56,455 nt of DNA from a virus: IMG/VR virus record IMGVR_UViG_3300030117_005233, positions 1 through 56,455 of that record; one strand, given 5' to 3'. A program made the translations under genes and the position numbers. Below the pieces are notes generated by a model, which saw nothing but the letters and a program-made list of their open reading frames with translations, had not been told where the DNA came from and made no database searches. Position 1 is the stretch's first letter; each line of letters starts with the position of its first letter. Below, in pieces: positions 2 through 49,869 of the stretch.

Positions 2-307
2 ATAGCTGCACCACAAATATATAATAACTCAGCTATTTTTGGGTTTGGTGCTGGACAAACTAATTCCATAGAAGGTAGTGGACTTTTTGCTGATGACGGC
101 CCGTTCAACGCAAGTTTAGAACTAAACGAAGAACAATACCTAGTTGTATTCACTTCATTTAGACCAGATGCTTTAGGTTCAATGAGTGTAGATGTACATG
201 GGCCTAATGAATTATCGTGGGCTGTAGTACCTGAACCAGCAACTATAGGTTTATTTTTAGGTGGAATAGGAACACTATTGTTAATTAGAAAAAGGATACA
301 TGGATGA
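2..307 (+). CDS. PEP-CTERM domain protein, 3' part (5' end outside window)
   Basis: An open frame runs from the window edge to a TGA at 305-307; 101 residues are visible. The C-terminus is a textbook PEP-CTERM tripartite tail: VPEPATIG, a hydrophobic stretch rich in L, G and I, then a basic RKRIHG end. In bacteria such tails are recognised and cleaved by exosortase (EpsH/XrtA type) during export of surface or exopolysaccharide-associated proteins. The part before the tail is a polar, probably beta-rich ectodomain. The next gene overlaps by ATGA (304-307), so the two are translationally coupled. The presence of such a tail in a T4-like phage is unexpected. The N-terminus and signal peptide cannot be seen here. 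Confidence 0.8.
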   Translation: MAAPQIYNNSAIFGFGAGQTNSIEGSGLFADDGPFNASLELNEEQYLVVFTSFRPDALGSMSVDVHGPNELSWAVVPEPATIGLFLGGIGTLLLIRKRIHG

Positions 308-864
308 AAAAACTAATCATAGGATTAATGATGTTATGTTCAGTTGTCTATTCTGATCTGATTACTACATTTGATTTTGATATTACAACTGCATTAACTT
401 GGACCCCGCCTGGTGAAAGTGGTACGTTCTATTATAATGTTGCATACTTTACAGTAAGTACAAATGGTTCTTATACTGCACAAAATAATCTTATTACTTC
501 ACATGATTCTTGGGATTATGGAACATCTACAAATGGTTTTACAGAAGCAGACACATATATCTATCTCTATAAGGATATGTTTCAAAAAGAAGACCCAAAT
601 AAATATTTAATTGCAGAAGATGATGATGGTTATAATGGTGGTAATGGTTATCAATTTGAGTTAACTCAAACTTTACAATCAGGTGTAACATATTGGGCAG
701 TTATATCGACATATGATTCAGAAGAATTAATGAGTGGAGATGTAAATGTATTAGGGCCAGCTGGTTCAAGTATTAATATAACAACTATACCTGAACCATA
801 CGCAGCCGGGTTAATTGTTGTAGGTGGATTAAGTTTATTAATAGGTCGAAGATTGTTTAGGTGA
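304..864 (+). CDS. PEP-CTERM domain protein
   Basis: 186 residues. The N-terminus is a signal peptide (MKKLIIGLMMLCSVVYS). Residues about 20-160 form an acidic, Tyr/Thr/Asn-rich ectodomain resembling secreted beta-sandwich proteins. The C-terminus carries IPEPYAAG, then a hydrophobic GLIVVGGLSLLIG segment and a basic RRLFR end, the PEP-CTERM sorting signal. The start overlaps the stop of the preceding PEP-CTERM gene, with AAAAGGA upstream as ribosome binding site. The protein should be exported through Sec and handled by the host exosortase. The ligand or role is unknown; a surface-modifying or superinfection-excluding protein is one possibility. The call of sorting signal is strong; the function is not known. 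Confidence 0.8.
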   Translation: MKKLIIGLMMLCSVVYSDLITTFDFDITTALTWTPPGESGTFYYNVAYFTVSTNGSYTAQNNLITSHDSWDYGTSTNGFTEADTYIYLYKDMFQKEDPNKYLIAEDDDGYNGGNGYQFELTQTLQSGVTYWAVISTYDSEELMSGDVNVLGPAGSSINITTIPEPYAAGLIVVGGLSLLIGRRLFR

Positions 865-870
865 ACATTT

Positions 871-2055
871 ATGAAAAAGTTTTTTTGTTTATTAGTATTT
901 TTATTATCAGTTACGTCATCGTATGGATTACTGAACGATTTAATAATTCTTAAAAATCATACACGACCTGGATATGATGATAATATTTTTACTCGTACAT
1001 CAGGTAACGAAACAGGTTCTTACTATGTAGAACAAATAGTAAGTATCGATGCAATCTTATCTGCTAGTCAAAAACAAATGTTATCTACAATGTATAGTCC
1101 AAAGTTTGTATGGAGAGATATAGATAACAAACAAATGTTATTTCATAATTGGACTACTAAACTACAATATAAACCTAATCCAAAATCAACAATAGATGCT
1201 TCTCATAAATGGACTGTATCAGAAAGAGAACCAACAGATATAGATATTGATTCAGATATAACTTGGGAACAAACACAAACTGATTTACAATTTTCTCATA
1301 CATATTCACGAAGACATTCTACCGTTATTGGTTTAACACGAAAAACAAAAGAATGGTCAGAGAACTTATTGGCAGTCGGTGAGATGTATACTGATGGAGA
1401 CTTTGAACAATATTCAGCAAACATTCATCAGATATATGAGATCTGGCAAGGAAAATTATTTTGGACTTATGGTATTGAAGCTGCACATCACGAATATGTA
1501 AATGATCGTGGTGGATTTTATGGAGGAGACATCTATAATAATCTAATGTATGTGTTAGGACAATCATCAATACTTCAACTTAGTTATTGGTACGGACACG
1601 CAACAACTGTATTACAAGGAGATGATGGTGAACACGAAACAGATGGTGGAGGCTGGGGACCGTCTTGGAAAGTATCATTAAATTCTCAACTATCAAAAAA
1701 CCTAATGACTGGATTATCTGTATCGTACGAAACAGTTGATTCATCTATCGCATTTTGGAACTCAAAAGATGTTTACAAAGCAATGGTAAATGCTAAATAT
1801 AATATAACACCGAAAACAGAAATAATGTCTGCTTTTGTCCTGACAGATAGTCATTATCTTGAGGACTATGACAGAAACGGTACTGGCCTTACCAGAGAAG
1901 ATATACTCGGTGTTGCTATATGTAACTTTACCTATAATATAAACAGAAATCATGCTGCAGAAATTAATTTTATGGGATTCGCAATGAACCCGGATGATGA
2001 AGTTCAAGGCGTCGCAAGAAATAAATTAACAATTGGTTATAGGCTTACTCTATAA
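871..2055 (+). CDS. putative outer-membrane beta-barrel protein
   Basis: 394 residues with a Sec signal peptide (MKKFFCLLVFLLSVTSSYG) followed by alternating polar/hydrophobic strands with many aromatic residues and a C-terminal strand ending LTIGYRLTL. This pattern fits an outer-membrane beta-barrel of the BBP2-like porin type, often found near exopolysaccharide and PEP-CTERM loci in bacteria. AGGTGA near 857 serves as ribosome binding site, six bases after the preceding stop. It closes a three-gene cassette of exported proteins. The ending residue is Leu rather than the usual Phe. A tail-fibre-like structural protein is a less likely alternative because of the clear signal peptide. Confidence 0.6.
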   Translation: MKKFFCLLVFLLSVTSSYGLLNDLIILKNHTRPGYDDNIFTRTSGNETGSYYVEQIVSIDAILSASQKQMLSTMYSPKFVWRDIDNKQMLFHNWTTKLQYKPNPKSTIDASHKWTVSEREPTDIDIDSDITWEQTQTDLQFSHTYSRRHSTVIGLTRKTKEWSENLLAVGEMYTDGDFEQYSANIHQIYEIWQGKLFWTYGIEAAHHEYVNDRGGFYGGDIYNNLMYVLGQSSILQLSYWYGHATTVLQGDDGEHETDGGGWGPSWKVSLNSQLSKNLMTGLSVSYETVDSSIAFWNSKDVYKAMVNAKYNITPKTEIMSAFVLTDSHYLEDYDRNGTGLTREDILGVAICNFTYNINRNHAAEINFMGFAMNPDDEVQGVARNKLTIGYRLTL

Positions 2056-2059
2056 TCTG

Positions 2060-2067
2060 TATAAATA
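2060..2067 (+). promoter_or_regulatory. T4-type late promoter motif TATAAATA
   Basis: Exact TATAAATA, five bases before the ATG at 2073. In T4 late promoters this box covers about -13 to -6, which would put the transcript start on the A of the ATG, so the mRNA would be leaderless. Confidence 0.65.
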
Positions 2068-2072
2068 GAAGT

Positions 2073-2333
2073 ATGATATATACATTTGCATGTGATAATT
2101 GTAATGGAAGTTTTGAAGTTAACGTGCCTATCGCAGATAATCAAAAACCACTTTCTCAAAAATGTCCACTATGTGGCGTAAAAGGAAAAGTCTATAGAGT
2201 CTTCGATAGTAGTGGTTTTCAATATAACGATCAAATGATGAAGAGAGCCGGAGATGGATGGAATGATGTTTTAAAATCCATTCATAAAGCTTCTGGACGT
2301 AAGAGTAATATTCATCAACATATGAGACGTTAA
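2073..2333 (+). CDS. FmdB-like zinc-ribbon protein
   Basis: 86 residues. The N-terminus (MIYTFACDNCNGSFEV) and the second CPLCG pair form a two-CxxC zinc ribbon of the FmdB/regulatory-protein type, at residues 7-10 and about 31-34. The rest is basic and ends in a His/Arg-rich tail. Similar small zinc-ribbon proteins are common in marine T4-like phages; their role is unknown. It is preceded by a perfect late-promoter box and has no Shine-Dalgarno sequence. Its stop overlaps the convergent stop of the VWA gene. Confidence 0.7.
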   Translation: MIYTFACDNCNGSFEVNVPIADNQKPLSQKCPLCGVKGKVYRVFDSSGFQYNDQMMKRAGDGWNDVLKSIHKASGRKSNIHQHMRR

Positions 2334-4492
2334 GCAACCATCTCAACGAACTTGTTGACGAATATTCTTTGACCCTTATTCTTCTTGTTGTGCTTGATGA
2401 AGGCATTCTTAAGTGCGCTGTCACTTAACTCTCGTGTATCAACATCACCGAACGAAGTGTCAGAGTCAAGATTGTTTTCATCGTATCTTCGATTAGCAGC
2501 CTTAAGGATGAATGATCTGTCGAAGCCACACTCACCATCACGCATGAAGATGTTTTCTGCTCTGTACTGCTTCCACTCATCATTAGAAACATACCAATAT
2601 TGTTGTCTTACATCTTCCTTAGAATTTGTTAAGAAGAAGTGAATAACGTTTGAACCAGTAACAGCTCGGTAGTTATCGAAAAGAATAGGTGTAACATGCT
2701 TGTGACGTGTATCATCAATTGTGATTTGCTTTCCACCAGCGATCTTACCGATGAACTTCGAACCACGCTCTGACATACCTAAACTAAAACCTTCACCATC
2801 AGTCAACCACATTGTTGTAACATTTTGTGGCTTGTGACGAGCGATGAAATCTTTTGCGATGTGAGTTGAAACAATAATTGCTTCTGACATCGGAGTACCA
2901 CCAAGACCTTCTAAATTAGAAGGAGTATCGTGACAATCTAACATTCTTGAAGCTACATACATATCCTTACAAGCTTTGTTGAACTTAGCACCTTTAAGAT
3001 CACTTGAAAGAAGTTGAATCATTTGTAAATCATCCATTCTAGAAAAAGTACAATTAGGAGCTTCGAAGTTAACATCTCTTCTGTTACCAGAAGTGAATCC
3101 GTAAACTTCGAAAGGTATACCAACACCTTGACAAAACATTGCTAGGTTAATAGCTTGCTTGTAAATTGTACCAATGTTGTAAGACATTGAACCAGACATA
3201 TCGATGTAGAACAACATCCCGTGATTTTTAGCGTTAGCTAAAGTTGTCACGCTGTTGAAGATATCTTCGCTGTACTTGTAAGAGTGAATCTTGTTAACAT
3301 CTAGTTTACCAGTTTTAGAAACTGTTGCTCTAGAGTATTGGTAAGCAGCTTTCTTCATATCAAACTCACGTTTAAGAGCCGCAACATATTTTTTAGTTGT
3401 TCTTTTAAATTCTAAATAATCATCCGCATATTCTGGTTTTCTATCAGCACCGTAACCGGTCCACTCATCACGTGATTTTTCTAACTCATCGTATGTGAAG
3501 ATTGTGTGGTTAATCATTTCCTTAGTAGCATCAACAAAGTTGTGAATAGCATTACAATTCCAATGGTCGTCATCATCATTAGAAACTCTTGTATCTTTCA
3601 TGCTGTCATTAAGAGCTTCGTCAGAATCTGAACCGTAACGACTAGGAGCAGGTTTTGATTCTTCAGTTTCAGCTTCTTCACCGTCGTCTGACCAGTCATC
3701 ATCGTAATCTGAAAGATCTGTTGATTCGTCATCGTCTGTACTCATAACATCACCTTGTGAGTTATCAGTTTCTTCAGAATCAGAATCAGAATCATTGTTA
3801 GATGAAGTAGACTCAGTATTTTCACTAGAATCATCGTTAGAATCATCAGATGAATTAGAAGTTTCTTCGTTGTCTTCGTCTTCAGGCTTTTCGTTTTCGT
3901 CAACAAACTTGATAATCTCTTCACAAGCATCAAGAACATCTTCGTAAGTTTCAGCCGCATAAACTAAGTCAACTAATTTTTGCTCTTCATCAGAAAACTC
4001 AACATCAACTAATTTACGAAGTTTTGCTTTGATATTTAATCTATCAACAAAACCACGCTCAGATATTGGTGTTTCGTTTAATTTGAAAAAGTCTCTGTCA
4101 TAAAGGTCTTTGTAACCATTAGTAAATGAACGAATCAATCCAGGATATTCTTTCTGAACTAAACGCTCTATACGTACGTCTTCTACTATATTACATAAAG
4201 AGAATGGTACATTTTTAAATCGTTTTAAGAACGCATCAACACCATTTTCTGGAGTATGAAGTGCGTGTGATATTTCGTGACCAATGAAAAGGTCAAGAAC
4301 ATCGTTTGATATACCGTCCCACAATGGAAGTTGTAGTACACGGTTTTTTACGTCAAATGAGGCTGTTTCATAGTCACCACGTTGGATAGTAATATCCTCA
4401 CGTGCTAATAATTTAGCAACCATAGATTTGACTTCTGTACGGATTAATTTTTCCGCAGCAGTCATATTGTTTGTCTTATCAGTGTCAATCAT
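2330..4492 (-). CDS. HExxH / VWA (CobT-like) protein
   Basis: 720 residues from the ATG at 4492. Residues about 72-76 read HEISH, a zinc-metallopeptidase-type HExxH helix. A long Asp/Glu/Ser-rich linker follows (about 205-300). The C-terminal half is a von Willebrand A domain with a MIDAS signature: DMSGSM near residue 433, a GGTPMS threonine loop, and WLTDGEG. This architecture resembles the CobT subunit of cobalt chelatase and the VWA partners of MoxR ATPases. The divergent neighbour is exactly such an ATPase. I chose 4492 because the -10 box ends six bases upstream and longer ORF starts would lie in the promoter; the mRNA would be leaderless. MTAAEK, nine codons on, is the alternative start. 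Confidence 0.75.
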   Translation of the reverse strand: MIDTDKTNNMTAAEKLIRTEVKSMVAKLLAREDITIQRGDYETASFDVKNRVLQLPLWDGISNDVLDLFIGHEISHALHTPENGVDAFLKRFKNVPFSLCNIVEDVRIERLVQKEYPGLIRSFTNGYKDLYDRDFFKLNETPISERGFVDRLNIKAKLRKLVDVEFSDEEQKLVDLVYAAETYEDVLDACEEIIKFVDENEKPEDEDNEETSNSSDDSNDDSSENTESTSSNNDSDSDSEETDNSQGDVMSTDDDESTDLSDYDDDWSDDGEEAETEESKPAPSRYGSDSDEALNDSMKDTRVSNDDDDHWNCNAIHNFVDATKEMINHTIFTYDELEKSRDEWTGYGADRKPEYADDYLEFKRTTKKYVAALKREFDMKKAAYQYSRATVSKTGKLDVNKIHSYKYSEDIFNSVTTLANAKNHGMLFYIDMSGSMSYNIGTIYKQAINLAMFCQGVGIPFEVYGFTSGNRRDVNFEAPNCTFSRMDDLQMIQLLSSDLKGAKFNKACKDMYVASRMLDCHDTPSNLEGLGGTPMSEAIIVSTHIAKDFIARHKPQNVTTMWLTDGEGFSLGMSERGSKFIGKIAGGKQITIDDTRHKHVTPILFDNYRAVTGSNVIHFFLTNSKEDVRQQYWYVSNDEWKQYRAENIFMRDGECGFDRSFILKAANRRYDENNLDSDTSFGDVDTRELSDSALKNAFIKHNKKNKGQRIFVNKFVEMVA

Positions 4493-4627
4493 GTATATAT
4501 TATACCAAACCATGCCAGATTTGTACACAAAAAAGAATCTACCTAAGTTGTTGGTACCCAATCACTTACATAGGCGACCGCAAAAAAATCGTCAATTTAC
4601 GTAAGTGATTCAGTACCAACAACTTAC
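4477..4627 (-). repeat. 151-bp duplicated promoter/leader segment, copy 1
   Basis: Read on the minus strand, this segment aligns without net gaps to 51921-52071 on the plus strand. It covers repeats, a T-run, the TGTACA/TATAAT promoter and the first 16 transcribed bases, ATGATTGACACTGATA, which are identical in both copies. By eye roughly 70% of positions match. Confidence 0.8.
4499..4527 (-). promoter_or_regulatory. promoter TGTACA-17-TATAAT for the VWA gene
   Basis: On the minus strand TGTACA (4527-4522) and TATAAT (4504-4499) are exactly 17 bp apart, with GG before the -10. Six bases separate the -10 from the ATG at 4492. Confidence 0.8.
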
Positions 4628-15085: not shown

Positions 15086-15204
15086 ATTTATTTTATGGTA
15101 TACTTTTTATAATAGTAATACCTATGATGGTAACTATTAGTTTACAAATATTTGAAGATGATGACGTTAAAAAAGAAAGACAACTTAAATGGCATGATGA
15201 TTGA
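15067..15204 (+). CDS. small membrane protein (45 aa)
   Basis: 45 residues, overlapping the previous gene by 19 bases and ending in TGA inside the start region of the primase-like gene. One membrane segment (FYGILFIIVIPMMVTISL) is followed by an acidic then basic tail (EDDDVKKERQLKWHDD). Supported by packing and composition only. Confidence 0.45.
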   Translation: MDQSSINLFYGILFIIVIPMMVTISLQIFEDDDVKKERQLKWHDD

Positions 15205-16138
15205 GTTTACAGCATTTCCATCTGTATACGATAACAAGACTCATAGAAAATTCTCATTTGAGAACTGGGATAAATTTAAAGCTGCACTTTTTAACATGTC
15301 AAAAAAGCCTGGTTACAAACCACGTAAAGGCGAAAAAAGCAATCTTAAAGCCTCACCACTTATTACACCTGCGACTTATGATGAAGGTACAACTCGTGCA
15401 AACGCTAATGTAATAAAATGGGCAGGTTGGTGTGCTCTTGATATAGATGAGTATGACGTATCCTTCAAAGAAGCTGTAAAACAATTCAGTGACTATTCTT
15501 ATGTTTGTTACTCGACTGCTTCGTCGACAAAACAAAAGCCAAAGTTTAGAATTGTATTTGAGTTAAGTACAGATGTAGAGAATGAAAAGATAAAACATTT
15601 TTGGTTTGCGTTAAACAAAGAATTTAATTCTATCGGCGATCCGCAAACAAAAGATTTATCTCGTATGTATTATATACCTGCACAATATCCTAATGCTTAT
15701 AACTTTTGTTTTAGTAATGAAGGATTACAACTAGATCCGCAAACGCTTATGGATAAACACGAGTATGTAGATAATAGTGGTACATTTTTATCTAAGCTTC
15801 CTATAGAAATGCAGCAAGCGATATTACAACATCGCAAAGATAGTTTAACAAATACTGATTATACATGGACATCATATCAAGATTGTAAGTTTGTAAATAA
15901 AAAATTAGTCGAAGAATATCGTAACATAACAGAAACAGGTTGGTATCATAAAATGTACCAGATAATGATATCAATTGGAGGCAATGCAATTCGTTATAAA
16001 TATCCTATAACAGCTACAGAGATTGCAATCTTGTGTAGACAGATAGATTTAGAAACAGGTGGTTGGTATAAAAACAGACCAATTGAAAAAGAAGCACAAA
16101 GAGCGTTAGATTTTGTGCTCGCAAGTGATAAATATTAG
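15194..16138 (+). CDS. archaeo-eukaryotic-primase-like (PrimPol/RepB-type) protein
   Basis: 314 residues from the ATG that overlaps the previous stop; an in-frame ATG at 15152 is an alternative. WCALDIDEYD near residue 78 looks like the DxD metal site of archaeo-eukaryotic primases, followed by YSTASSTKQKPKFRIVFEL, which resembles the strand carrying the nucleotide-binding residue. The C-terminal 100 residues look like a helical PriCT-type region (IMISIGGNAIRYKYP, RALDFVLA). No TOPRIM-type gp61 primase was found in the window, so this may act in priming, but gp61 could lie outside. Confidence 0.5.
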   Translation: MMIEFTAFPSVYDNKTHRKFSFENWDKFKAALFNMSKKPGYKPRKGEKSNLKASPLITPATYDEGTTRANANVIKWAGWCALDIDEYDVSFKEAVKQFSDYSYVCYSTASSTKQKPKFRIVFELSTDVENEKIKHFWFALNKEFNSIGDPQTKDLSRMYYIPAQYPNAYNFCFSNEGLQLDPQTLMDKHEYVDNSGTFLSKLPIEMQQAILQHRKDSLTNTDYTWTSYQDCKFVNKKLVEEYRNITETGWYHKMYQIMISIGGNAIRYKYPITATEIAILCRQIDLETGGWYKNRPIEKEAQRALDFVLASDKY

Positions 16139-16149
16139 TGAGATTTATT

Positions 16150-16614
16150 ATGAAGAAAATATTGAAATCAAAGTACCACGACCAAAAATATATCACTATT
16201 AACGATGAAAAGTTTGAAGTTAAACCTTTACCACTTGAAAAATGTTGGCCATCAGTACCTCGAGCCGATATCCATCGTGATATACCTTTCTATCAACCAG
16301 TAAAAGAATCAATTCAAAAAGAAGGTATGCATTTTCCTATTATGGTATATTATGCCACACGATGGGAACTTATCGAACAAAAAAAGATATGGCATAAGCA
16401 TATTGAACCTCTTCCATTTTATAAAACAGACACAGCAAATCACCATAAAAAAATATATGTTGTATGGGGTGGATCTAACCGTTGGCATGTTGCAAAAGAA
16501 TTGGGTTATACTCATATCGATTGCGCACTAATGCCATCATTCGATAAAGCATACGGATTACAAAAAAACTTTAGAATGCCGTATCCTAATCTTTATGGTG
16601 GAGACCCAAGATAG
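16150..16614 (+). CDS. ParB/sulfiredoxin-like fold protein
   Basis: 154 residues from the ATG at 16150, with GAG upstream; a GTG at 16138 is an alternative. The end of the domain reads VVWGGSNRWHVAKELGYTHI, resembling the nucleotide/DNA-handling GxxRxxAxxxLG loop of ParB-like nuclease domains, and VPRADIHRDIPFY could be the matching first strand. Such domains occur with phage DNA modification and partition systems. Function unknown. Confidence 0.55.
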   Translation: MKKILKSKYHDQKYITINDEKFEVKPLPLEKCWPSVPRADIHRDIPFYQPVKESIQKEGMHFPIMVYYATRWELIEQKKIWHKHIEPLPFYKTDTANHHKKIYVVWGGSNRWHVAKELGYTHIDCALMPSFDKAYGLQKNFRMPYPNLYGGDPR

Positions 16615-17363
16615 TGCGTAATTTAATTTTCCAGTATTATATTCCATATGAAGCAGGTGATGCTGACATGGGAGGATTCCAATTACCTGAATGGGCGCAC
16701 GGCGGTAGTTATTCTGCTAGACGATATGCAGAAATTTGTGGTGCTGAATATGAATTTTCGAATGAAAGATATTTTAAACACTTAGATCCTCGCCTTGATT
16801 CACTAAGAATTTTTTATGATGAGAAGTATGATGAGTATGATAATATTCTTTGTTTAGATTTAGATATGCTAATAAAAACAAAAGAGAATATATTCGAAAA
16901 AGATATCGGTGATGTTGCAATGGTTCACGAGCTAGGTGTTCATGTTAGTCAAGGTAACTGGCTAAGAAATGTTATGGAGGTTCCTTTAGAAAAAAGAGGA
17001 GTTATCGCTTACGGTAAACATTTATTTGGAAGTGATTGGATGTTTCCTAAATCAGAGTTATATCCTGATGAAGCTTGGAGATATTTAAACGGCGGACTAC
17101 AACTTTGGTCAAAAGAAGGTAGACAAAAAGCACGTAAACATTTTACTTCAGTTGATAACTATTATTTACATACAAGATACACAGAACAAATGTACATTAA
17201 TTTACAATTATCACAACCGATTTTTAATGTAAAAGAACTTCCTACAGAATGGAATAGAATAGCTATATATCAAAAGCCTCTGTTTGATGGAAAGATAAAT
17301 CATTTTTTAGCAAGGCATAAATTTAGTATACCGCAACTTATAAAAGACGGATGGAGCGTATGA
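16614..17363 (+). CDS. GT-A-like glycosyltransferase, paralog 1
   Basis: 249 residues from a GTG that overlaps the previous TAG. The start LIFQYYIP, a middle segment RYAEICGAEYEFS and a DxD site in LCLDLDMLIK (near residue 83) define a phage glycosyltransferase type repeated at 20473 and 21165. The DxD would bind the metal and nucleotide-sugar. A conserved GGLQLWS strand with an acceptor loop follows. First gene of the glycan cluster. The sugar and acceptor are unknown. Confidence 0.65.
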   Translation: MRNLIFQYYIPYEAGDADMGGFQLPEWAHGGSYSARRYAEICGAEYEFSNERYFKHLDPRLDSLRIFYDEKYDEYDNILCLDLDMLIKTKENIFEKDIGDVAMVHELGVHVSQGNWLRNVMEVPLEKRGVIAYGKHLFGSDWMFPKSELYPDEAWRYLNGGLQLWSKEGRQKARKHFTSVDNYYLHTRYTEQMYINLQLSQPIFNVKELPTEWNRIAIYQKPLFDGKINHFLARHKFSIPQLIKDGWSV

Positions 17364-17971
17364 AGTATTTAGAAATAGCTGCAGCCAAAAAACGTGGATC
17401 TGAATGGGTTGCTGTTCGTGACGAATGTGATGATTACGATGGCGTACAAAAATATGATATGACAAACTTGCCTATGTCAGGTGTTCCAGATAATTGCTTC
17501 GATGGAATATATTCTGAACATTTTATCGAGCATCTATTTAAATATCAAGGGGTTAATTTTTTTAAGGAAGCTTTCCGCATACTTAAACCTGGAGGAATCA
17601 TTAGAACAGTTTGGCCTCCATATGAATTTGTAGAAAAATTAGTTAGTGATGAATCTTTAACTCAAGCTGAAAATAATTTTGTAGAACACTATTTTCAATT
17701 CTATGTTCAAAGGCATAACTTTGCTCCGTCTGGAAATGAACATCGTAGTAAAAGAGAACAATGTGCATTAGGATTATCATATCAAAATGGTGAACATCTA
17801 TATGTATGGCCTAAAAAAGAACTTATAGAAGTATGTACTGATATTGGATTTACTCGTGTAGAAGAAAAACTTTATAACGTAAGTAGTTTACAAGCATTCA
17901 ATTATATTGAAACACCTTGTCAAATTAGAGCAGCACATTCTGCTGTTGTGGAGGCAACGAAACCAGCATGA
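17360..17971 (+). CDS. SAM-dependent methyltransferase (class I, type 11)
   Basis: 203 residues from the ATGA overlap. The segment LPMSGVPDNCFDGIYSEHFI followed by EAFRILKPGGIIRTV is the usual motif IV-VI region of class I methyltransferases. The glycine-rich SAM loop at the N-terminus is reduced (YLEIAAAKKRGSEW). It lies between a glycosyltransferase and a hypothetical gene, so a sugar or glycan is the likely acceptor. Confidence 0.8.
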   Translation: MKYLEIAAAKKRGSEWVAVRDECDDYDGVQKYDMTNLPMSGVPDNCFDGIYSEHFIEHLFKYQGVNFFKEAFRILKPGGIIRTVWPPYEFVEKLVSDESLTQAENNFVEHYFQFYVQRHNFAPSGNEHRSKREQCALGLSYQNGEHLYVWPKKELIEVCTDIGFTRVEEKLYNVSSLQAFNYIETPCQIRAAHSAVVEATKPA

Positions 17972-18378
17972 CAATAATTGCAGAATATAAAGGTAATCTA
18001 TCTGAGTTTACATATTTTTGGAAACCATTAATAATTAAACACGGCGAAGTTGAATTTATTTTTACTAATGGTAATGATTTAACAGGTGTAAAAACAGCTA
18101 ATAGTATTGAAGAAGCAGTCAGTATGAGTTCAAGTGAAAATATATTTTTAACAGATACTAATGGTATACCTACCTATGAAACAATGATATATTTAACGTC
18201 AATGGCTGGTAATGTTTGTTGTAATCCGGTTTGGCACGACTATAATAACGCACCCGCTGGTCAAAAAACAAACTCATTTACTATTTTAAAACAACAATTT
18301 ACAGGAACAGATTTTAATGAATATGTCAGTAAATGGAATCCAAAAGTGATTGAAGACTTAACATTATATAAGGTATGA
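17968..18378 (+). CDS. hypothetical protein of the glycan cluster
   Basis: 136 residues, ATGA overlap with the methyltransferase gene. It has a compact alpha/beta look with FTNGNDLTGV and IFLTDTNGIPTYETM segments that could be a reduced nucleotide-binding fold, but I cannot place it. It is co-translated with sugar-modifying enzymes. Confidence 0.5.
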   Translation: MTIIAEYKGNLSEFTYFWKPLIIKHGEVEFIFTNGNDLTGVKTANSIEEAVSMSSSENIFLTDTNGIPTYETMIYLTSMAGNVCCNPVWHDYNNAPAGQKTNSFTILKQQFTGTDFNEYVSKWNPKVIEDLTLYKV

Positions 18379-18382
18379 ATAC

Positions 18383-19738
18383 ATGATTAAATTAGTATTA
18401 TTTGATTTAGACGGTGTTTTAATTAATTCAAAAAAAATTCACTATGATGCAATGAATGTTGCATTACCTTCTCAATATAAAATTACTTATGAAGAGCATC
18501 TTAATTTATATGATGGTTTAAAAACAACTGAAAAGTTAGAGATGTTAACTAAAGAAAAAGAATTACCTTTATCTGAGCACAAAAACATATACGATGCAAA
18601 ACAACAAGAAACTATGAATCTTTTATCGAATTTAAAACCAAATAAAGACATAGTTGAATTATTTTATAGTTTAAATAGATTAGGTTATAAAATTGGTGTA
18701 TGTTCAAATTCAATTAGAAGAACAGTTTTAACTACTCTTGCTCAAACTAATTTGATAAAGTATTGTTCTGTAATTATGTCTAATGAAGATGTTAAGAATG
18801 GTAAGCCTCACCCCGAAATGTATTGGAAAGCAATGTCTATGTTAGGTCATTTACCAGAAGAAACAATTATTATAGAAGATTCACCACCTGGTTTATTAGC
18901 TGCAGAAAGATCAAGAGCAAATTATATTAGGGTTAAAGACCCAACAGAAGTGACATGCAAAAATATTTTAAATAAAATTAAAGGAGAAAATAAAGTGAGT
19001 AAGTGGAAAGATGATAAACTAAATGTATTAATACCAATGGCAGGTGCTGGTTCAAGATTTGAACAAGCCGGATATACATTTCCTAAACCATTAATACCTG
19101 TTAATGGAAAACCAATGATACAAGTTGTTGTAGATAATTTAGGAGTAGATGCTAATTTCCATTTTGTAGTTCAAAAATCTCATAAAGAAAAATATAATTT
19201 ACATTCAATGTTAGATTTAATTGCACCTGGGTGTAAAGTTATTGAAGTAGACGGTATTACAGAAGGTGCAGCATGTACGGCACTATTAGCTAAAGAGTTT
19301 ATTAATAATGATCAACCATTGTTATTTGCAAATAGTGATCAATTCTGTGAATGGAAACCAATTGATTTTATGTATAATATGCAAGAAAAAAATTGTGACG
19401 GGGGTATTGTAACATTTGAGAATACACACCCTAAATGGTCTTATGCAAGAATTGATAATAACGGTTTAATAACAGAAGTACAAGAAAAGAATCCTATATC
19501 TAAAGATGCTACGGTAGGATATTACTATTGGAAACATGGATCAGATTTTGTTAAGTATGCTGAACAAATGATTGAAAGAAATATACGCGTTAATAATGAA
19601 TTTTATGTTTGCCCTGTATTTAACCAGGCTATCGAAGCTGGTAAATCTATTAGAGCATTTCGTTCTGAAGGCATGTGGGGATTAGGTACACCTGAAGATT
19701 TAGAATATTTTGTTGCTAATTATAAGGAAAAAGTTTAA
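18383..19738 (+). CDS. HAD phosphatase - sugar nucleotidyltransferase fusion
   Basis: 451 residues. Residues 1-about 200 are a HAD hydrolase of the beta-phosphoglucomutase type: LFDLDGVLINS (motif I), GVCSNS (motif II), KNGKPHPEMY (motif III) and IIEDSPPGLLAA (motif IV). Residues about 212-451 are a nucleotidyltransferase: LIPMAGAGSRF with FPKPLIPVNGKPMI, then FANSDQF and a C-terminal GLGTPEDLEYF. The fusion could dephosphorylate or isomerise a sugar phosphate and activate it to an NDP-sugar. It supplies substrates for the surrounding glycosyltransferases. Both catalytic motif sets look intact. Confidence 0.85.
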   Translation: MIKLVLFDLDGVLINSKKIHYDAMNVALPSQYKITYEEHLNLYDGLKTTEKLEMLTKEKELPLSEHKNIYDAKQQETMNLLSNLKPNKDIVELFYSLNRLGYKIGVCSNSIRRTVLTTLAQTNLIKYCSVIMSNEDVKNGKPHPEMYWKAMSMLGHLPEETIIIEDSPPGLLAAERSRANYIRVKDPTEVTCKNILNKIKGENKVSKWKDDKLNVLIPMAGAGSRFEQAGYTFPKPLIPVNGKPMIQVVVDNLGVDANFHFVVQKSHKEKYNLHSMLDLIAPGCKVIEVDGITEGAACTALLAKEFINNDQPLLFANSDQFCEWKPIDFMYNMQEKNCDGGIVTFENTHPKWSYARIDNNGLITEVQEKNPISKDATVGYYYWKHGSDFVKYAEQMIERNIRVNNEFYVCPVFNQAIEAGKSIRAFRSEGMWGLGTPEDLEYFVANYKEKV

Positions 19739-20476
19739 ATGAAAGTAGCTGTGTGTGTATCAGGTGTTCCTGAAAGTAGATATAATCTAATTAAAAGGAA
19801 TAATACTGTTCAAAAACTTAAATTTCCAAATGCAGACTTTTACTATGCAACATGGAAAGGTAGAGAAAAATTATTTTATGAAAATTTTCCAGATTATGAG
19901 TTACATACTTTTGATGAACCTGTAATGCATTATCACCCGTATATGGATATAAAAGATTTTACATCTCCATATTTTGAGGAAACTAAGTCTTGGGTAGTGC
20001 GGACAAATAGAATAGAATGGACTAGCCATCATACTAAACAAATTTTAATTCATGCAATGTTACTAGATAAAATAAAAGATAACTATGATGTTATAATCCG
20101 AGGAAGATTTGATAATTTTATTTGGAATGATAAAGCTGCAGACTTTACTCCATTTATAGAAGATACTTACAATAACAATAGAGCAAACTGTTTTGCAGTA
20201 ACTAATGGTCCAAAATTTAAAGAACAGTATGAATCAGATTATGAAAAAAATCCTAAAATGCGAGAATGGCCTTTAGATCAACTTATTATTCATCCAAGAA
20301 ATATGATTAATTTATCTGATATACTACAACTTCATAAGGAAAAAAAATTAAGAGCAGCAGAGTATGGTTGGCATCAAGTTCTAAGTGAACCATACGGTAA
20401 TAATCATAGAAACTGGCACGGATGGGTTAATCACGATAAAAATGTTCCTTATCAATTTATAAAGGAGGCAGAATGA
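19739..20476 (+). CDS. putative glycosyltransferase
   Basis: 245 residues starting directly after the fusion gene. It begins KVAVCVSGVPESRYN and contains YDVIIRGRFDNFIW, a pattern seen in poorly characterised GT-A-like phage and bacterial proteins in which RxD replaces DxD. A long aromatic region DHIIHPRNM-like follows. It belongs to the operon by ATGA overlap with the next gene. Family assignment is tentative. Confidence 0.5.
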   Translation: MKVAVCVSGVPESRYNLIKRNNTVQKLKFPNADFYYATWKGREKLFYENFPDYELHTFDEPVMHYHPYMDIKDFTSPYFEETKSWVVRTNRIEWTSHHTKQILIHAMLLDKIKDNYDVIIRGRFDNFIWNDKAADFTPFIEDTYNNNRANCFAVTNGPKFKEQYESDYEKNPKMREWPLDQLIIHPRNMINLSDILQLHKEKKLRAAEYGWHQVLSEPYGNNHRNWHGWVNHDKNVPYQFIKEAE

Positions 20477-21168
20477 AAAATATAATATTACAACATTATA
20501 CAGGTGAATTAGGTGAATTAGAAAAATTATCTCAGGCAAATATGATTAAGTATGCAGAATTTTGTGGTGCTGAATACAGATTATTGAGCGGTGATTTATT
20601 TAATGAAGAATATCCATGGGAACCTACGTTATATGCACCAAACCAAAAGATGCATATGATGAGTAAAGAGTTTGATGATTATGATATTGTACTAATGGTC
20701 GACATAGATATGTTTACACGAAAAGGCATGACAGAAAATATATTTACAGATGTAAAAGGTATAGGAATGTATACAGACTTTCAACAACATTTATTTGGTG
20801 GTTTAAAAAGACACTTTCCTGATATAGTCGATTTAAATTATCCTTACTGGGGAGGCGCAATATACAGATTAGAAAAAGCACAACGCGTACAATTAAGAGA
20901 ACACATTAAAGATAATATGAAAGACATTGCAAGATTTGATAGAGGATTTAATGATGAAGGAGCAATGCACCTATTAGCTAAACTTTCAGATTTTAAAGAC
21001 AGAGCAATTTTACCAGGTGGATTTAAATGGTGTCATTGCAGTTATCGAGAAGGAATAGAAAACTCAGCAATGATACACATTAGACCTAAGGTAACACCCG
21101 TAGGACCAAAGAGACCTAAAATAGAAAATTATAGAGAATTAGTTAGAAAAGGATTAATAGAAGAATGA
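20473..21168 (+). CDS. GT-A-like glycosyltransferase, paralog 2
   Basis: 231 residues, AAAGGAGG before the start. Same layout as the gene at 16614: MKNIILQHYTG at the N-terminus, KYAEFCGAEYRLLS, then VLMVDIDMFTRKG with the DxD site, and LNYPYWGGAIYRL as acceptor-side strand. Overlaps the next gene by ATGA. Confidence 0.65.
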   Translation: MKNIILQHYTGELGELEKLSQANMIKYAEFCGAEYRLLSGDLFNEEYPWEPTLYAPNQKMHMMSKEFDDYDIVLMVDIDMFTRKGMTENIFTDVKGIGMYTDFQQHLFGGLKRHFPDIVDLNYPYWGGAIYRLEKAQRVQLREHIKDNMKDIARFDRGFNDEGAMHLLAKLSDFKDRAILPGGFKWCHCSYREGIENSAMIHIRPKVTPVGPKRPKIENYRELVRKGLIEE

Positions 21169-21977
21169 AAAATTTAATTTATCAATATTGGGATGGAGAT
21201 ACTTCTAGGCCAGGAGTAATTGCTGGCGTTAAAGCAATGAAAAAGTATGCAGAGAAAATCGGCGCGGAATATTTATTTGAAGATAATCCAAGGTATTATA
21301 CTCATCTAGGTCCTTACAGTCCACACTATGGTCAGTTTAAATTAATACATGAAGAAAAATTTAGTGATTATGACCATATCATGTTTGCTGATACAGATGT
21401 ATTTCCTGTTGAAAAGTTAGAGAAAAGTATATTTGATGATTTAACTGCAGACATAGGAATATGCGCAGAAGGATGGATGACTAAAAACAAAGGTAAAACT
21501 CCTGCTGAATCATATAATCCGATATGTAGAGACGCAGATGAAGTCTGGGCAGCTAAACTAGAACAACGGTTTGGTGTTAAATTCCCTAGATGCGAAGAAA
21601 CGAATCATTTAATGATGTACAATTCAGGTATGGTAGTGTATAATAATAAAGGTTTAAAGGAAGCAAAACAAAAATTTATGCAATACGAGGATTATATAAG
21701 AACAATTAGTCCATGTGCTTCATTTTACACATGCGATCAACCATATTTACATGCACAATTAATTATTAAAGATATTAATTGGCAACAGATGGATCCAGCT
21801 TGGAATTGTTTTGTACATTATATAGGACACCCAGCTATAAAACCAAGACCAATTAATGACACAAGAGTAAACGGAGAAGGTAATTTTATTCACATTCAGC
21901 TTAGAGGTGCAGATGATTTCGATGAAGAAAAATTATGGAGAATAACTAATTTACCTCAATCAGAATGGAGAATATAA
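21165..21977 (+). CDS. GT-A-like glycosyltransferase, paralog 3
   Basis: 270 residues, starting MKNLIYQYWDGDTSRPG and carrying KYAEKIGAEYLFED and IMFADTDVFPVE with the DxD site near residue 78. The later NSGMVVYNNKGL strand matches its two paralogs. The three copies probably arose by duplication and may add successive sugars. Confidence 0.68.
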   Translation: MKNLIYQYWDGDTSRPGVIAGVKAMKKYAEKIGAEYLFEDNPRYYTHLGPYSPHYGQFKLIHEEKFSDYDHIMFADTDVFPVEKLEKSIFDDLTADIGICAEGWMTKNKGKTPAESYNPICRDADEVWAAKLEQRFGVKFPRCEETNHLMMYNSGMVVYNNKGLKEAKQKFMQYEDYIRTISPCASFYTCDQPYLHAQLIIKDINWQQMDPAWNCFVHYIGHPAIKPRPINDTRVNGEGNFIHIQLRGADDFDEEKLWRITNLPQSEWRI

Positions 21978-22564
21978 TGCAAATTTTTAAATATAAAGAT
22001 TATGAGCACTACGTTAAAGAACAAACTTTTTATAATAAAGAAAAAATAGCGTGGAGCTTCTTTAATAAACAAGGTCCGAGAAAAGGTATATTAATTCTAA
22101 TGATTGAAAAATATTTTGGAGAATCAGCTAATAATAAAGATGTCATATGTCACGGTACTCGCGGGGGTCACGAACAACAATTTTTTAAAGGCTTATTCCC
22201 AAAAGGGCATATACAAGGTACAGAAATTAGTGATACCGCATCACAATTTCCAATGACGGTTGAATGGGACTTTACTAAACAACATCCAAGATGGGTTAAT
22301 AGATTTGATATAGTTTATTCTAATTCTTTTGACCACTCGATAAATCCACAAGAAACTTTACGTGTTTGGCACGAGCAACTTAGAGAGGGCGGTTTTATGT
22401 TTATAGAATGGGCTGAGGGAGACTCTGTGTGTACATTAAATGATCCTCTTGATGCATCTGCGAAAGAGATTACTAAACTAATTAAAAAAACAGGATTTGT
22501 AATAGAAGAACAACACGTCATAGGTGTTTCTCAAGGTAATATGTATATATGTAGAAAGGTTTAA
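21977..22564 (+). CDS. SAM-dependent methyltransferase-like protein
   Basis: 195 residues from an ATG that overlaps the previous TAA. Motif-like segments: DVICHGTRGGHEQQFF in place of the glycine loop, IQGTEISDTA for the acidic SAM ribose site, FDIVYSNSFDH and LREGGFMFIEW. This is the class I methyltransferase order. The target is unknown and may be a glycan. Confidence 0.7.
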   Translation: MQIFKYKDYEHYVKEQTFYNKEKIAWSFFNKQGPRKGILILMIEKYFGESANNKDVICHGTRGGHEQQFFKGLFPKGHIQGTEISDTASQFPMTVEWDFTKQHPRWVNRFDIVYSNSFDHSINPQETLRVWHEQLREGGFMFIEWAEGDSVCTLNDPLDASAKEITKLIKKTGFVIEEQHVIGVSQGNMYICRKV

Positions 22565-22566
22565 TT

Positions 22567-23154
22567 ATGTTAACAGCAACAATAGAAAATGCAAGTACAC
22601 TAGAAGAGTTTTATGAACAAATAAGAAGTCAACAGGAGGATCCTAAAAATCATGGGCCACATTATTGTTCACACCATGATTTAATAAAAGAGTTTGCGCC
22701 AGGATGCACATCTTATAAAGAGCTTGGAACACATCAAGGAGCATCTGCTGCAGCCGCTCTTTTAGCTGGATTTAAAGAAGTTCATTTTGTAGACCATACT
22801 TTAGAAAAGTATAATTGGCAAAAACATTTATTTGAAAAGTATTGTGAAGAAAATGAAGTTGATTTAAATGTATATGAATGTTCTTCAATTCACCATAGCA
22901 CAGCCGTAACTACAGATGTACTTATGATCGATTCATTACATGATTGGTCTTGGACAATTTTAGAGTTAGATCATCATGCTCCACTTACAAAAAAACATAT
23001 TATATTTCATGATACTACAACCGTAAATGGAAAGCCTTCTAATATATGGCCAGGTATTAATATGTGGTGTAAAGTAAATGCAGATAAGTGGTATGTTAAT
23101 CGTAGAAATTTAGAAAATGTTGGATCAACAATAGTAAGTAGAGTGGGTGTATGA
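22567..23154 (+). CDS. methyltransferase / cephalosporin-hydroxylase-like fold protein
   Basis: 195 residues. YKELGTHQGASAAAALLAGF resembles the SAM glycine loop of Methyltransf_24-type enzymes, EVHFVDHT the acidic strand, and DVLMIDSLHDWSWTILELDH plus KHIIFHDTT the later motifs. Members of this group methylate sugars. ATGA overlap with the next gene. Confidence 0.65.
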   Translation: MLTATIENASTLEEFYEQIRSQQEDPKNHGPHYCSHHDLIKEFAPGCTSYKELGTHQGASAAAALLAGFKEVHFVDHTLEKYNWQKHLFEKYCEENEVDLNVYECSSIHHSTAVTTDVLMIDSLHDWSWTILELDHHAPLTKKHIIFHDTTTVNGKPSNIWPGINMWCKVNADKWYVNRRNLENVGSTIVSRVGV

Positions 23155-23840
23155 AAGCATTTATAATATATCAAAGAGATAATCCAGATTCTGTTAAAGT
23201 AACTAAAGTATTAAAAGAATCGATAGAGCAAACCCAATCCGATATTAATGTTGAAATGTTTAATGCAATTACACCTAGTTCTCCGCCTAAAGAAATTCCA
23301 GATGAATTATTTGACATAACATATACATATCCTAGAGAAGGACAAACCAGATATGATACTAAAACAGGTCTTACTTTGACTGGTTACGTTGCATCATCTG
23401 CAGATGTTAAACTTGCTTGTACTTTAAGTCATGCTAAACTATGGAAAAAATGCGTTGAACTAGACGAAGAGATAATGATACTAGAACACGATGCATTTTT
23501 CTTAAGAAAGTTTGAACCATTTGAATGGGAAGGTGGTATATTAGGATTAAACGATCCAAGAGGCGCAACAAGAAAATCTATGGTTTTTCATGGCGAAGCT
23601 TCTAAGGTAAATGGTATTTCTAATTGTCCATACGTAGATACACAACCTGTACCACAAGGTCTTGCTGGTAATTCAGCATATATTATAAAACCATTTGCTG
23701 CAAAACATTTATTAGAAAAACTAAAAGAGTTTGGTGCTTGGCCAAATGATGCACTTATGTGTAATCAAGTTTGTCCATGGTTAAAAGTAATTCATCCGTA
23801 TTACACAAGAGTTCAAGGAGGAATAAGTACTACAACATGA
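23151..23840 (+). CDS. GT25-family glycosyltransferase, copy 1
   Basis: 229 residues. LACTLSHAKLWKKCVELDE followed by IMILEHDAFFLRKF and GNSAYIIKPFAAKHLLEKL match the GT25 (LPS beta-galactosyltransferase) family, including the ExDA site. A second GT25-type gene lies at 24543. In bacteria the family adds galactose or glucose to lipo-oligosaccharide or collagen-like chains. Confidence 0.78.
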   Translation: MKAFIIYQRDNPDSVKVTKVLKESIEQTQSDINVEMFNAITPSSPPKEIPDELFDITYTYPREGQTRYDTKTGLTLTGYVASSADVKLACTLSHAKLWKKCVELDEEIMILEHDAFFLRKFEPFEWEGGILGLNDPRGATRKSMVFHGEASKVNGISNCPYVDTQPVPQGLAGNSAYIIKPFAAKHLLEKLKEFGAWPNDALMCNQVCPWLKVIHPYYTRVQGGISTTT

Positions 23841-24574
23841 GAATATTAATTACAGGTCATAAAGGTTTTATCGGAAGTCGTCTCTGGGAAAGATTAGATC
23901 ATGAATCTATTACACTTTATGGCATAGATATAAAAGATGGTGACGATATTTTAGATACACCATTGCCTGAAGTTGATTTAGTTATTCACTTAGCAGCAAG
24001 AGCAGGCGTTAGAGAGTCTGTAAAAGATCCTAAAACATATTGGGAAACAAATGTCGAAGGTTCTAAAAGAATTATAAAACATTATAAAGATACAAGAATA
24101 TTAGCTGCAAGTTCTAGTTCGGCATATGCACCTCATCTAAATCCGTATTCTGCTACTAAATATATTATGGAGCAGATACCTCATAATAATATTTGTTATA
24201 TGAGGTTTCACACCGTATATAATGATTCAGCTAGAACAGGAATGTTCTTTGATAAATTATTTAAGGGTACTGTAAAATATATTACAAAACATGAAAGAGA
24301 TTTTATTCATTTAGAAGATATGTGTGATGCATTAGAATTACTAATAACGAATCCAAATGTAAAAGGGACGTTTGATATAGGAACGGGTAAAACAATTAAG
24401 ATGAATGATATATGTCCTGATCTTCCTATTAAAACAGATACACCAAGAGAAAGAGAAAGAACATGCGCAGATACAAGTTTTATGACAATAAACTGTGGCT
24501 GGCAAGCAAAACGTTTAGTAACGGAGTTTTTAAAGGAGAATAGTGAAATCATACGTTATTACAATAATGGATAA
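23837..24574 (+). CDS. NAD-dependent nucleotide-sugar epimerase/dehydratase
   Basis: 245 residues, about 60 shorter than usual extended SDR enzymes. GHKGFIGSRLWERL is the NAD(P)-binding GxxGxxG loop, LVIHLAARAGVRES the next conserved strand, and SAYAPHLNPYSATK holds the YxxxK catalytic pair. DFIHLEDMCDAL is the usual late motif. It should interconvert an NDP-sugar for the local glycosyltransferases. The start at 23837 overlaps the preceding stop as ATGA. Confidence 0.9.
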   Translation: MRILITGHKGFIGSRLWERLDHESITLYGIDIKDGDDILDTPLPEVDLVIHLAARAGVRESVKDPKTYWETNVEGSKRIIKHYKDTRILAASSSSAYAPHLNPYSATKYIMEQIPHNNICYMRFHTVYNDSARTGMFFDKLFKGTVKYITKHERDFIHLEDMCDALELLITNPNVKGTFDIGTGKTIKMNDICPDLPIKTDTPRERERTCADTSFMTINCGWQAKRLVTEFLKENSEIIRYYNNG

Positions 24575-25196
24575 TCCTCGTTCTGTTGAAGTGGCAAAAC
24601 GATGTATTGAATCAGGTAAAAAGTTTGGTATTGAAGTAGAACATCATCCAGGATTTACACCTAAAGATAATCCTGAACAAATGATGATTGATAAAGGTAT
24701 AAACTACGATAGATTTAAAAATAATCAATATTCTAGATTCGAACCGTGCATGGCTGCATTTTTATCTCATCGTGAATGTTGGAAAAAAGCTATAGAGTTA
24801 GACGAACCCGTTTTAGTATTAGAACACGATGCAGTTTTTACTGCTCCGTTACCTAAAGTTGATATTGCATTTAAAGTTATATCTTTTGGTAAACCATCTT
24901 ACGGATCATACAGAGCTTCAACTAAAGAAGGATTTTTTGCAGTATTTTCTAAGCCTGGAGGCTATTTACCTGGCGCTCATGCTTATTTAGTAAGTCCAAG
25001 AGGAGCAAAAATTTTAGTTGAAAAATCTTACATGCTTGCAGAACCAACTGACATATATTTAAAGAAAGATAATTTTCCATGGCTAACAGAATATTATCCT
25101 TGGCCCGTAATGGCAGACGATTCTTTCTCTTGTATTCAATTAGATGAAGGTTGTAAGGCAAAACATAATTATAATAAAGGCATTGAAATAATATGA
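24543..25196 (+). CDS. GT25-family glycosyltransferase, copy 2
   Basis: 217 residues from a GTG that overlaps the epimerase gene by 32 bases; AAAGGAGAA is upstream. The same GT25 signature is present: CMAAFLSHRECWKKAIELDE, VLVLEHDAVF and GAHAYLVSPRGAKILVEK. It is clearly related to the gene at 23151. Confidence 0.78.
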   Translation: MKSYVITIMDNPRSVEVAKRCIESGKKFGIEVEHHPGFTPKDNPEQMMIDKGINYDRFKNNQYSRFEPCMAAFLSHRECWKKAIELDEPVLVLEHDAVFTAPLPKVDIAFKVISFGKPSYGSYRASTKEGFFAVFSKPGGYLPGAHAYLVSPRGAKILVEKSYMLAEPTDIYLKKDNFPWLTEYYPWPVMADDSFSCIQLDEGCKAKHNYNKGIEII

Positions 25197-25852
25197 ACAA
25201 AACATTTATAACCGGTGTAGATAAAAATTTACAAGACTTATTACCTTGGTGGATTAATAATATTCGTAAACACGATACTGAAACACACATTACAGTAGCT
25301 GACTTTGGTATGGACGAAAACTGGGCGGCATGGGCTAAAAAGAGTGTGAACTGTTTTTTAAGTTATCCTCCTCATAAACGTTGCGCATGGTTTTATAAGC
25401 CACATACTTTAATCAAAGCTCCATACGAATATAAATGTTGGATTGATATTGATTGCGAAGTATTGACTAATATAACAGAGATATTTGACTTTGTAGACGG
25501 AACTAATTTAGCATTAACTGATGATCCATGTAGAACAAGAGAACCTGGAGATCCTAATCCAAAATGGTTTGCTACTGGTGTAAATGTTGTAAAAGGTAAT
25601 CCTAAAATTTTAAAAATTTGGGATAGATGGACAAGACCGGGAGATGGTGTAAAAACATGTCACTTTCGTGGTGACCAAGAGTGTTTGCACAAACTTCTTT
25701 CCACAGGCACTTTACACGAAAGTGTAGTTGAGATGCCGATGGAGTATCAATGGTTAAGAATACAACTTGCAAGAGGAGAAGATAATCCTAATAAAAAAAT
25801 TATCCACTGGACAGGTCCAGCAGGAAAAGATCACATTAGATCAAAAATGTGA
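25193..25852 (+). CDS. GT8/GT-A-like glycosyltransferase
   Basis: 219 residues, ATGA overlap with the GT25 gene. KCWIDIDCEVLTNI carries a DxD site near residue 85; the C-terminus has KKIIHWTGPAGKDH, like the HxxGxxKPW end of GT8 enzymes. FATGVNVVKGN is the acceptor-side strand. It is the last gene of the glycan cluster. Confidence 0.68.
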   Translation: MNKTFITGVDKNLQDLLPWWINNIRKHDTETHITVADFGMDENWAAWAKKSVNCFLSYPPHKRCAWFYKPHTLIKAPYEYKCWIDIDCEVLTNITEIFDFVDGTNLALTDDPCRTREPGDPNPKWFATGVNVVKGNPKILKIWDRWTRPGDGVKTCHFRGDQECLHKLLSTGTLHESVVEMPMEYQWLRIQLARGEDNPNKKIIHWTGPAGKDHIRSKM

Positions 25853-25881
25853 TGTACAAATGCGTTAATTTGTGATAATAT
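25853..25881 (+). promoter_or_regulatory. promoter TGTACA-17-TAATAT for the exonuclease
   Basis: TGTACA (25853-25858), 17 bp, TAATAT (25876-25881); GATAAT two bases earlier is another -10 reading. Six bases then the ATG at 25888, so the mRNA should be leaderless. Confidence 0.65.
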
Positions 25882-25887
25882 ATACCT

Positions 25888-26430
25888 ATGAAAATTAAGA
25901 ACGCTATGATCGATGTAGAGACCTTAGCAGTAGACTGGAACGCAGTCGTACTCACTATAGGTGCCGTAAAGTTTAACCCATTCACAAATGATATTGACAG
26001 CAAGTTTCATGTTAAATTAGATGTCGATTCACAAATAGAAAAAGGTAGAGTCACGGACGAACGAACACTTGCCTGGTGGGGTCAACAAGAAGAAAGTGTA
26101 AAAGCAAAAGCATTTAGTCCTGAAGGTAGGATAGATGTTGGTGAAGCTTTAGATAAATTATCAGAATGGGCAAATGATACTCATCGTGTTTGGTGTCAAG
26201 GCCCATCATTTGATTTTCCTATCGTAGATAGTTTATACAGACAGTATGATAGACAAATCCCTTGGAAGTTCTGGAATCAACGAGATGCAAGAACAGTCAC
26301 AGGACTTTTAGCAGAAGACATAAAAGGAAAAATAAATTTTGATGCGCATGACGCGGCGGAAGATTGTGTAGCGCAAGCTAAATGTGTGCAATACGTATAT
26401 AATAAATTAGGAGTGTGTCATACAGTATGA
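25888..26430 (+). CDS. dexA: DexA-like 3'-5' exonuclease (DEDD family)
   Basis: 180 residues. NAMIDVETLAVDWNAVVLTI has the DxE of exonuclease motif I, WCQGPSFDFPIV the motif II Asp, and DAHDAAEDCVAQA the motif III HxAxxD. Order and spacing fit the RNase-T/DexA group of DEDDh exonucleases. T4 DexA (227) is longer. It should degrade single-stranded DNA or RNA ends. No Shine-Dalgarno precedes the ATG. Confidence 0.85.
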   Translation: MKIKNAMIDVETLAVDWNAVVLTIGAVKFNPFTNDIDSKFHVKLDVDSQIEKGRVTDERTLAWWGQQEESVKAKAFSPEGRIDVGEALDKLSEWANDTHRVWCQGPSFDFPIVDSLYRQYDRQIPWKFWNQRDARTVTGLLAEDIKGKINFDAHDAAEDCVAQAKCVQYVYNKLGVCHTV

Positions 26431-26855: not shown

Positions 26856-26863
26856 TTTTTTTA

Positions 26864-26892
26864 TTTACTTTTAACTTAAAATAAGGTAGTAT
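26864..26892 (+). promoter_or_regulatory. promoter TTTACT-17-TAGTAT
   Basis: TTTACT (26864-26869), 17 bp, TAGTAT (26887-26892), then seven bases to the ATG at 26900. The leader would be zero or one base. Confidence 0.7.
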
Positions 26893-26899
26893 ATATAAC

Positions 26900-49863: not shown

Positions 49864-49869
49864 AAACAC

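Follow-up and report, generated by a model that had tools for sequence, protein, structure and literature searches.

Organisation of the locus

Proteins of the PEP-CTERM family are exported, anchored by their tail, recognised by an exosortase and released towards the cell surface. Two adjacent genes at the left end of a viral contig appeared to encode such proteins, which raises the question of whether a phage really carries these tails and, if it does, what they would do in the infected cell. The window (the whole stretch of DNA analysed) is the 56,455-base IMG/VR virus record IMGVR_UViG_3300030117_005233, and its left contig end falls inside the first of the two genes, P1. An earlier note on this DNA had attributed the tails to a T4-like phage, and the replication and recombination genes bear this out: the window encodes a DNA polymerase (phrog_262, 4e-300), a clamp loader (phrog_168), UvsX (PF21134) and a DnaB-type helicase. 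A search of the window for tRNA genes as a clue to the host found none. The features of the left end are as follows.

2..307, + strand: P1, PEP-CTERM protein, 5' end off the contig; TIGR02595 24.4 bits (cut-off 16), PF07589 21.2 bits (cut-off 20.7); homologues in L004, L005 and L007
230..304, + strand: PEP-CTERM tail of P1; VPEP (PEP at 230-238), hydrophobic helix, RKRIHG; TIGR02595 match at 227-295
304..864, + strand: P2, second PEP-CTERM protein, 186 aa; signal peptide, beta-sandwich ectodomain and C-terminal TM helix (AF2 model, pLDDT 73.5)
304..354, + strand: signal peptide of P2, MKKLIIGLMMLCSVVYS, by inspection of the sequence; helix 2-14 in the model
790..861, + strand: PEP-CTERM tail of P2; IPEP (PEP at 790-798), hydrophobic stretch, GRRLFR; TM helix 165-184 in the model
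871..2055, + strand: P3, 394-aa outer-membrane barrel, 18 predicted strands; homologous to EpsL/BBP2-type barrels of EPS loci
871..927, + strand: signal peptide of P3, by inspection of the sequence; N-terminal helix 2-17 in the model
2060..2067, + strand: TATAAATA, T4-type late-promoter-like motif just 3' of P3, found at the same place in several relatives
2073..2333, + strand: FmdB-type zinc-ribbon protein (TIGR02605, 38.2 bits), outside the module; phage synteny marker
2330..4561, - strand: VWA/CobT-like protein, outside the module; phage synteny marker

The start codon of P2 overlaps the end of P1 (304-307). The late-promoter-like motif 3' of P3, present in several loci, gives no firm indication of the timing of the module itself. 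Further into the window, a tightly packed run of ORFs, mostly of 130-270 aa, lies at 15152-27271 (+) and includes a HAD/polynucleotide-kinase-like protein (18383-19738) and an NDP-sugar epimerase (23771-24574; PF01370, 78.5 bits). A single open frame of 4406 aa at 36649-49869 (-), with no Pfam match at E 0.01, is probably a giant structural or adhesion protein.

PEP-CTERM tails on two adjacent phage proteins

The C-termini of the two proteins read VVPEPATIGLFLGGIGTLLLIRKRIHG (P1) and TIPEPYAAGLIVVGGLSLLIGRRLFR (P2). P1 scored above the cut-offs of both PEP-CTERM models. Whole P2 matched neither TIGR02595 nor PF07589, and for TIGR02595 it was borderline, with 15.6-16.1 bits for the isolated tail and 13.8 in a scan of the whole record, against the cut-off of 16. 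At the same tail position, the P2 relatives in L002 and L003 scored 15.6-16.1 bits and that in L004 25.3 bits with TIGR02595. As P2 taken by itself is borderline by score, the case for it is made by the relatives with the conserved tail. N-terminal signal peptides were seen by sequence inspection in P2 and in the full-length P1 homologues of L004, L005 and L007, full-length homologues being 207-223 aa long. The proposal that two neighbouring proteins carry such tails therefore stood for P1 on both models and for P2 through its relatives, the score of P2 itself being equivocal. The PEP-CTERM tails on these phage proteins are real.

The tail proved specific to these proteins. When the 883 distinct ORFs of at least 60 aa in the window and related viral loci were scanned for a PEP-TM-basic tail, 23 carried one and all 23 were module proteins; put differently, the tail was present in 23 of the 27 distinct module proteins and in none of the remaining 856 ORFs, while shuffled tails passed the same criterion at a rate of 3.7e-5. 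Pro-Glu was invariant in the 27 homologues, and the last Pro was lost in four (VPES, IPEL). A bacterial tail with PES at this place, as in some of the phage tails, was also seen, in L126 (host genome G010); because of it, the third residue of the tail may be less strict in this clade.

Comparison of pairs of homologues revealed that the tail can part company with the rest of the protein. L035 and L021 share 24% identity in the ectodomain and 96% in the tail, whereas L035 and L045 share 95% in the ectodomain and 50% in the tail. On this evidence the tail and the ectodomain appear to be shuffled independently, like sorting tags; the same modular behaviour has been described for bacterial PEP-CTERM tails by Haft et al. 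(PMC1569441). Judged from the sequences, sorting by way of the tail appears well supported.

The ectodomain of P2 had no relative in 388 Verrucomicrobiota genomes (a search run without a positive control), a fold search of the PDB with P2 gave no more than weak matches, at a TM of about 0.4, to jelly-roll and carbohydrate-binding proteins and to LipL32, and a sequence search of the PDB with P2 and P3 gave no informative match.

A conserved module in related viral contigs

Searching with P3 recovered two viral contigs (79% identity) in which a homologue of P2 precedes P3 and the genes that follow it are, as in the window, FmdB, VWA/CobT-like, CobS-like and clamp, in that order. A search with a P2 alignment added three more contigs, one of 141,669 bases, in which a full-length P1 (209-211 aa, with signal peptide) is followed by P2 and then by a diverged P3. 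With a P3 alignment, 33 other IMG/VR contigs with P3 were found, and a PEP-CTERM-type (P1/P2-type) protein lay directly 5' of P3 in all 30 contigs that have upstream sequence. The module occupies two genomic sites, either beside RNase H, FmdB and CobS genes or beside sulfotransferase and fibre-like genes. That positions 1-2055 are host DNA joined to the phage by an assembly error, a reservation attached to the original proposal and one to which the ending of the contig inside P1 lends some colour, is for all practical purposes excluded by the presence of the same genes on the same phage flanks in independent contigs.

In the relatives two further genes lie 5' of the PEP-CTERM genes in conserved order (L002:3475-4985, L004:326-2131, L007:5870-7382 and others). 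The first encodes an acidic protein of 435-540 aa with one hydrophobic segment and KKKKGFF-DDEEE repeats, and the second a membrane protein of 57-61 aa with a charged end; neither matched a known family. The full module thus comprises the acidic membrane protein, the small membrane protein, one or two PEP-CTERM proteins and the outer-membrane barrel, and in the window the genes for the first two would lie beyond the contig start. In some copies the PEP-CTERM gene is separated from that of the small membrane protein by an extra membrane ORF of 45-63 aa (L023:3876-4013, L046:9128-9319). In one phage group (L007:12050-13597, L019, L025, L028) BspA-like leucine-rich-repeat proteins, possibly fibres, adjoin the module.

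Among 50,697 phage records no relative of P2, P3 or the acidic protein was found, and the small membrane protein gave only one spurious match of 16 residues. P1, P2 and P3 are under purifying selection, with dN/dS of about 0.09-0.5 in close pairs.

The tails resemble those of Verrucomicrobiota

The commoner of the phage tail types was converted into a degenerate DNA pattern, which was run in a strict and a relaxed form on 84,980 cellular genomes. The strict pattern (FLY[VI]A) was absent from all of these genomes and matched 11 times in viral contigs, each already known to carry the module; its absence from the cellular genomes implies that the phage tails are near to known host tails and not copies of them. 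The relaxed pattern, PEPS[ST]Y[AV]L-x8-[YF][VI]A-x-[RK][RK], matched 23 stretches, every one of which translates as a C-terminal tail and comes from Verrucomicrobiota. Nineteen of these belong to Opitutales-type bins or isolates (Opitutia, Opitutaceae, Puniceicoccaceae, Cerasicoccus), mostly marine; three of the others are in one 'Verrucomicrobia bacterium' bin and one is in Methylacidimicrobium. As the pattern was derived from the phage tails it favours lineages with similar tails, so that these matches measure similarity and are no proof of infection. How close the tails can be is illustrated by the pair VPEPSTYALIAGFAAFLFVAIRRRK (host) and VPEPSTYALMLAFGAFLYVAIKSRTV (phage). For many of the pairs the G+C content also agrees, being 34-40% in the phages and 34-43% in most pelagic host loci.

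The tails of the window belong to a second type (PEPATIGL..., ...LLIGRRLFR). When 388 genomes drawn from Verrucomicrobiota only were searched with a profile of this type, 211 matched, some of them closely (PEPTVMSLISISGLGLLIGRRF and PEPATIGLLGVSGLGLMAFRRR, for example).

The earlier note had narrowed the host to exosortase-bearing Gram-negatives, and the tail matches are in keeping with this, pointing to Verrucomicrobiota. An exosortase was encoded in all 14 of the tested genomes behind the relaxed-pattern matches and in all 12 of the genomes with the best window-type tails, compared with 4 of 12 genomes without the tail, where the scores were weaker; in total, 26 of the 26 candidate host genomes tested, which were chosen by tail match, have the enzyme. 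No exosortase was found in six virus records of up to 141 kb, which may be fragments. The link between phage and host is drawn from the tails together with the homology of P3.

P3 is related to barrels of bacterial EPS loci

The third gene, about which the earlier note was silent, provides the best functional clue of the module. The AlphaFold model of P3 (pLDDT 76, pTM 0.68) shows a signal helix at the N-terminus and a barrel of 18 strands, and it has the outer-membrane beta-barrel fold of BBP2_2 porins, a fold common to many families. AlgE (Z 21.1) and OccK7 (20.8) tied as the best fold matches, ahead of Wzi (18.6), and because of this tie the fold alone does not decide the function. P3 fell below the cut-off of every family model: the window protein did not match PF10082 (gathering cut-off 23.7), for which other phage P3 proteins reached 13-15 bits at most, and the phage P3 proteins did not match EpsL (TIGR03014, equivalog cut-off 275 bits), so that P3 is not filed here as an EpsL.

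Cellular homologues were more revealing. A search of 273 genomes of the order Opitutales gave weak fragments only; a profile built from 20 P3 sequences found homologues in 17 of the 388 Verrucomicrobiota genomes, and several of these 17 (G324, G357, G312, G471, G413) also gave some of the best matches to the window-type tail. In most of the loci fetched, the P3 homologue lies directly beside a chain-length-determinant/tyrosine autokinase, which in turn adjoins a polysaccharide export lipoprotein, and these neighbours match TIGR01007 (162.6 bits) and the EpsF, XrtA chain-length and XrtA/PEP-CTERM export models. The cellular homologues themselves reach 33.8 bits with PF10082 (cut-off 23.7) and 24-34 bits with EpsL TIGR03014 (cut-off 275). 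Against one of these homologues, window P3 gave an alignment of 407 columns with 21% identity (E 1e-17, in a small search set). Both halves of the module, the tail and the barrel, thus point to the same bacterial EPS/exosortase system, each by an independent route.

Discussion

Tails like the surface-sorting tails of marine Verrucomicrobiota, lying beside a relative of a slime-export pore, suggest that the phage probably uses the sorting enzyme of its host to change the surface of the infected cell. The reading that we favour, with fair but by no means full confidence, is that the phage borrows the host exosortase to sort its own proteins towards the surface, adds a pore of EPS type and so remodels the cell that it has infected. 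During infection the PEP-CTERM proteins would be exported by way of their signal peptides and would stay fixed in the inner membrane through the C-terminal helix; the host exosortase would then cut them at PEP, and the cut proteins would pass to the cell surface or the exopolysaccharide layer. The P3 barrel, as a relative of the EpsL type, would be inserted in the outer membrane, where it and the sorted proteins may jointly alter the surface of the infected cell and its EPS. For a lytic phage the likeliest and most natural gain would be the exclusion of further phages, or that progeny do not stick to used cells and debris; the earlier note had offered exclusion or adhesion as examples.

Some of the results weigh against this explanation. 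Four of the 27 tails lack the last Pro and P2 of the window is borderline; P3 itself scores below every family cut-off, being linked to EpsL by way of cellular homologues that are about 21% identical. In the genomes searched, no cellular relative of the ectodomains was recognised. P3 could also have lost its involvement in EPS after capture.

Two other explanations have to be considered. The module may instead be an auxiliary cassette for the fitness of the host, altering EPS, supplying a pore for nutrient uptake or causing aggregation, with no role in exclusion; in bacteria PEP-CTERM proteins and exosortases act in EPS-linked floc and biofilm formation (PMC9850573, PMC12188702), the fold of P3 is about equally like AlgE and OccK-type pores, and other phages encode porin-like proteins. 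We regard this as possible but tentative, as aggregation of a dying cell would bring little gain to a lytic T4-like phage and the module has no metabolic partner gene.

It is unlikely that the tails are mere C-terminal anchors and that P1/P2, remaining in the inner membrane, form an envelope-spanning complex with the barrel and the acidic protein, for instance for lysis or spanin-like membrane fusion, in which exosortase plays no part. All of the module proteins look membrane-bound or exported, the acidic protein with its one hydrophobic segment and long charged region could span the periplasm, and the last Pro is missing from some tails. However, what the tails have in common with the PEP-CTERM tails of particular bacterial clades is a signature of residues and not simply a helix, and they have kept an invariant Pro-Glu, with PEP in 23 of 27, despite replacement of the ectodomain; in addition, the relatives of P3 are located in EPS-export loci, and no match to a lysis family was found.

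The proposed use of the host exosortase can be set beside several known systems. Like the proteins of PEP-CTERM/exosortase (EpsH) sorting (Haft et al., 2006; PMC1569441), the phage set has a C-terminal PEP, TM helix and basic cluster, an N-terminal signal peptide and divergent ectodomains with a common tail, but it is encoded by a phage, in records that were searched and found to be without an exosortase, and it shares a fixed operon with a barrel of the outer membrane. P3 is homologous over its full length (about 21%) to Verrucomicrobiota barrels that match the EpsL (TIGR03014) and PF10082 models and lie beside EPS export genes; it differs from those families in scoring below the cut-offs and in that its neighbours are phage genes and include no chain-length or export partners. 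Llp of phage T5 (PMC9586334) sets a precedent in principle for surface exclusion by a phage, and both Llp and Cor are envelope proteins encoded by phages, for which a change of the infected cell's surface has been shown, as is proposed for the module; they are small lipoproteins acting on FhuA, whereas the module combines an entire barrel with tails of exosortase type. Porin-like proteins of uncultured phages, found as BFVD matches, are like P3 in being phage-encoded outer-membrane barrels, but the top matches are annotated as OprO/P-, OmpC- or SusC-like, whereas the cellular homologues of P3 are in EPS loci and P3 itself is accompanied by PEP-CTERM proteins.

No description of viral PEP-CTERM proteins was found in the literature covered, which was represented mainly by titles and the openings of abstracts and excluded most subscription journals. 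If the explanation that we favour is correct, these would be the first viral substrates of an exosortase, and phages would be seen to exploit exosortase/EPS surface sorting. On balance we consider it probable that a marine phage lineage uses exosortase for proteins with shuffling ectodomains and tails fitted to the clade of the host, together with a captured barrel of EPS type. The module would tie marine T4-like phages to Verrucomicrobiota, a group with few phage isolates, for which P8625 was reported as the first lytic phage (PMC4642752). The PEP-CTERM tail would then be a marker of host clade that can be read from sequence, and it could help to assign hosts to uncultured phages. It also raises a testable question, namely whether the host exosortase sorts the phage proteins and what effect the altered surface would have.
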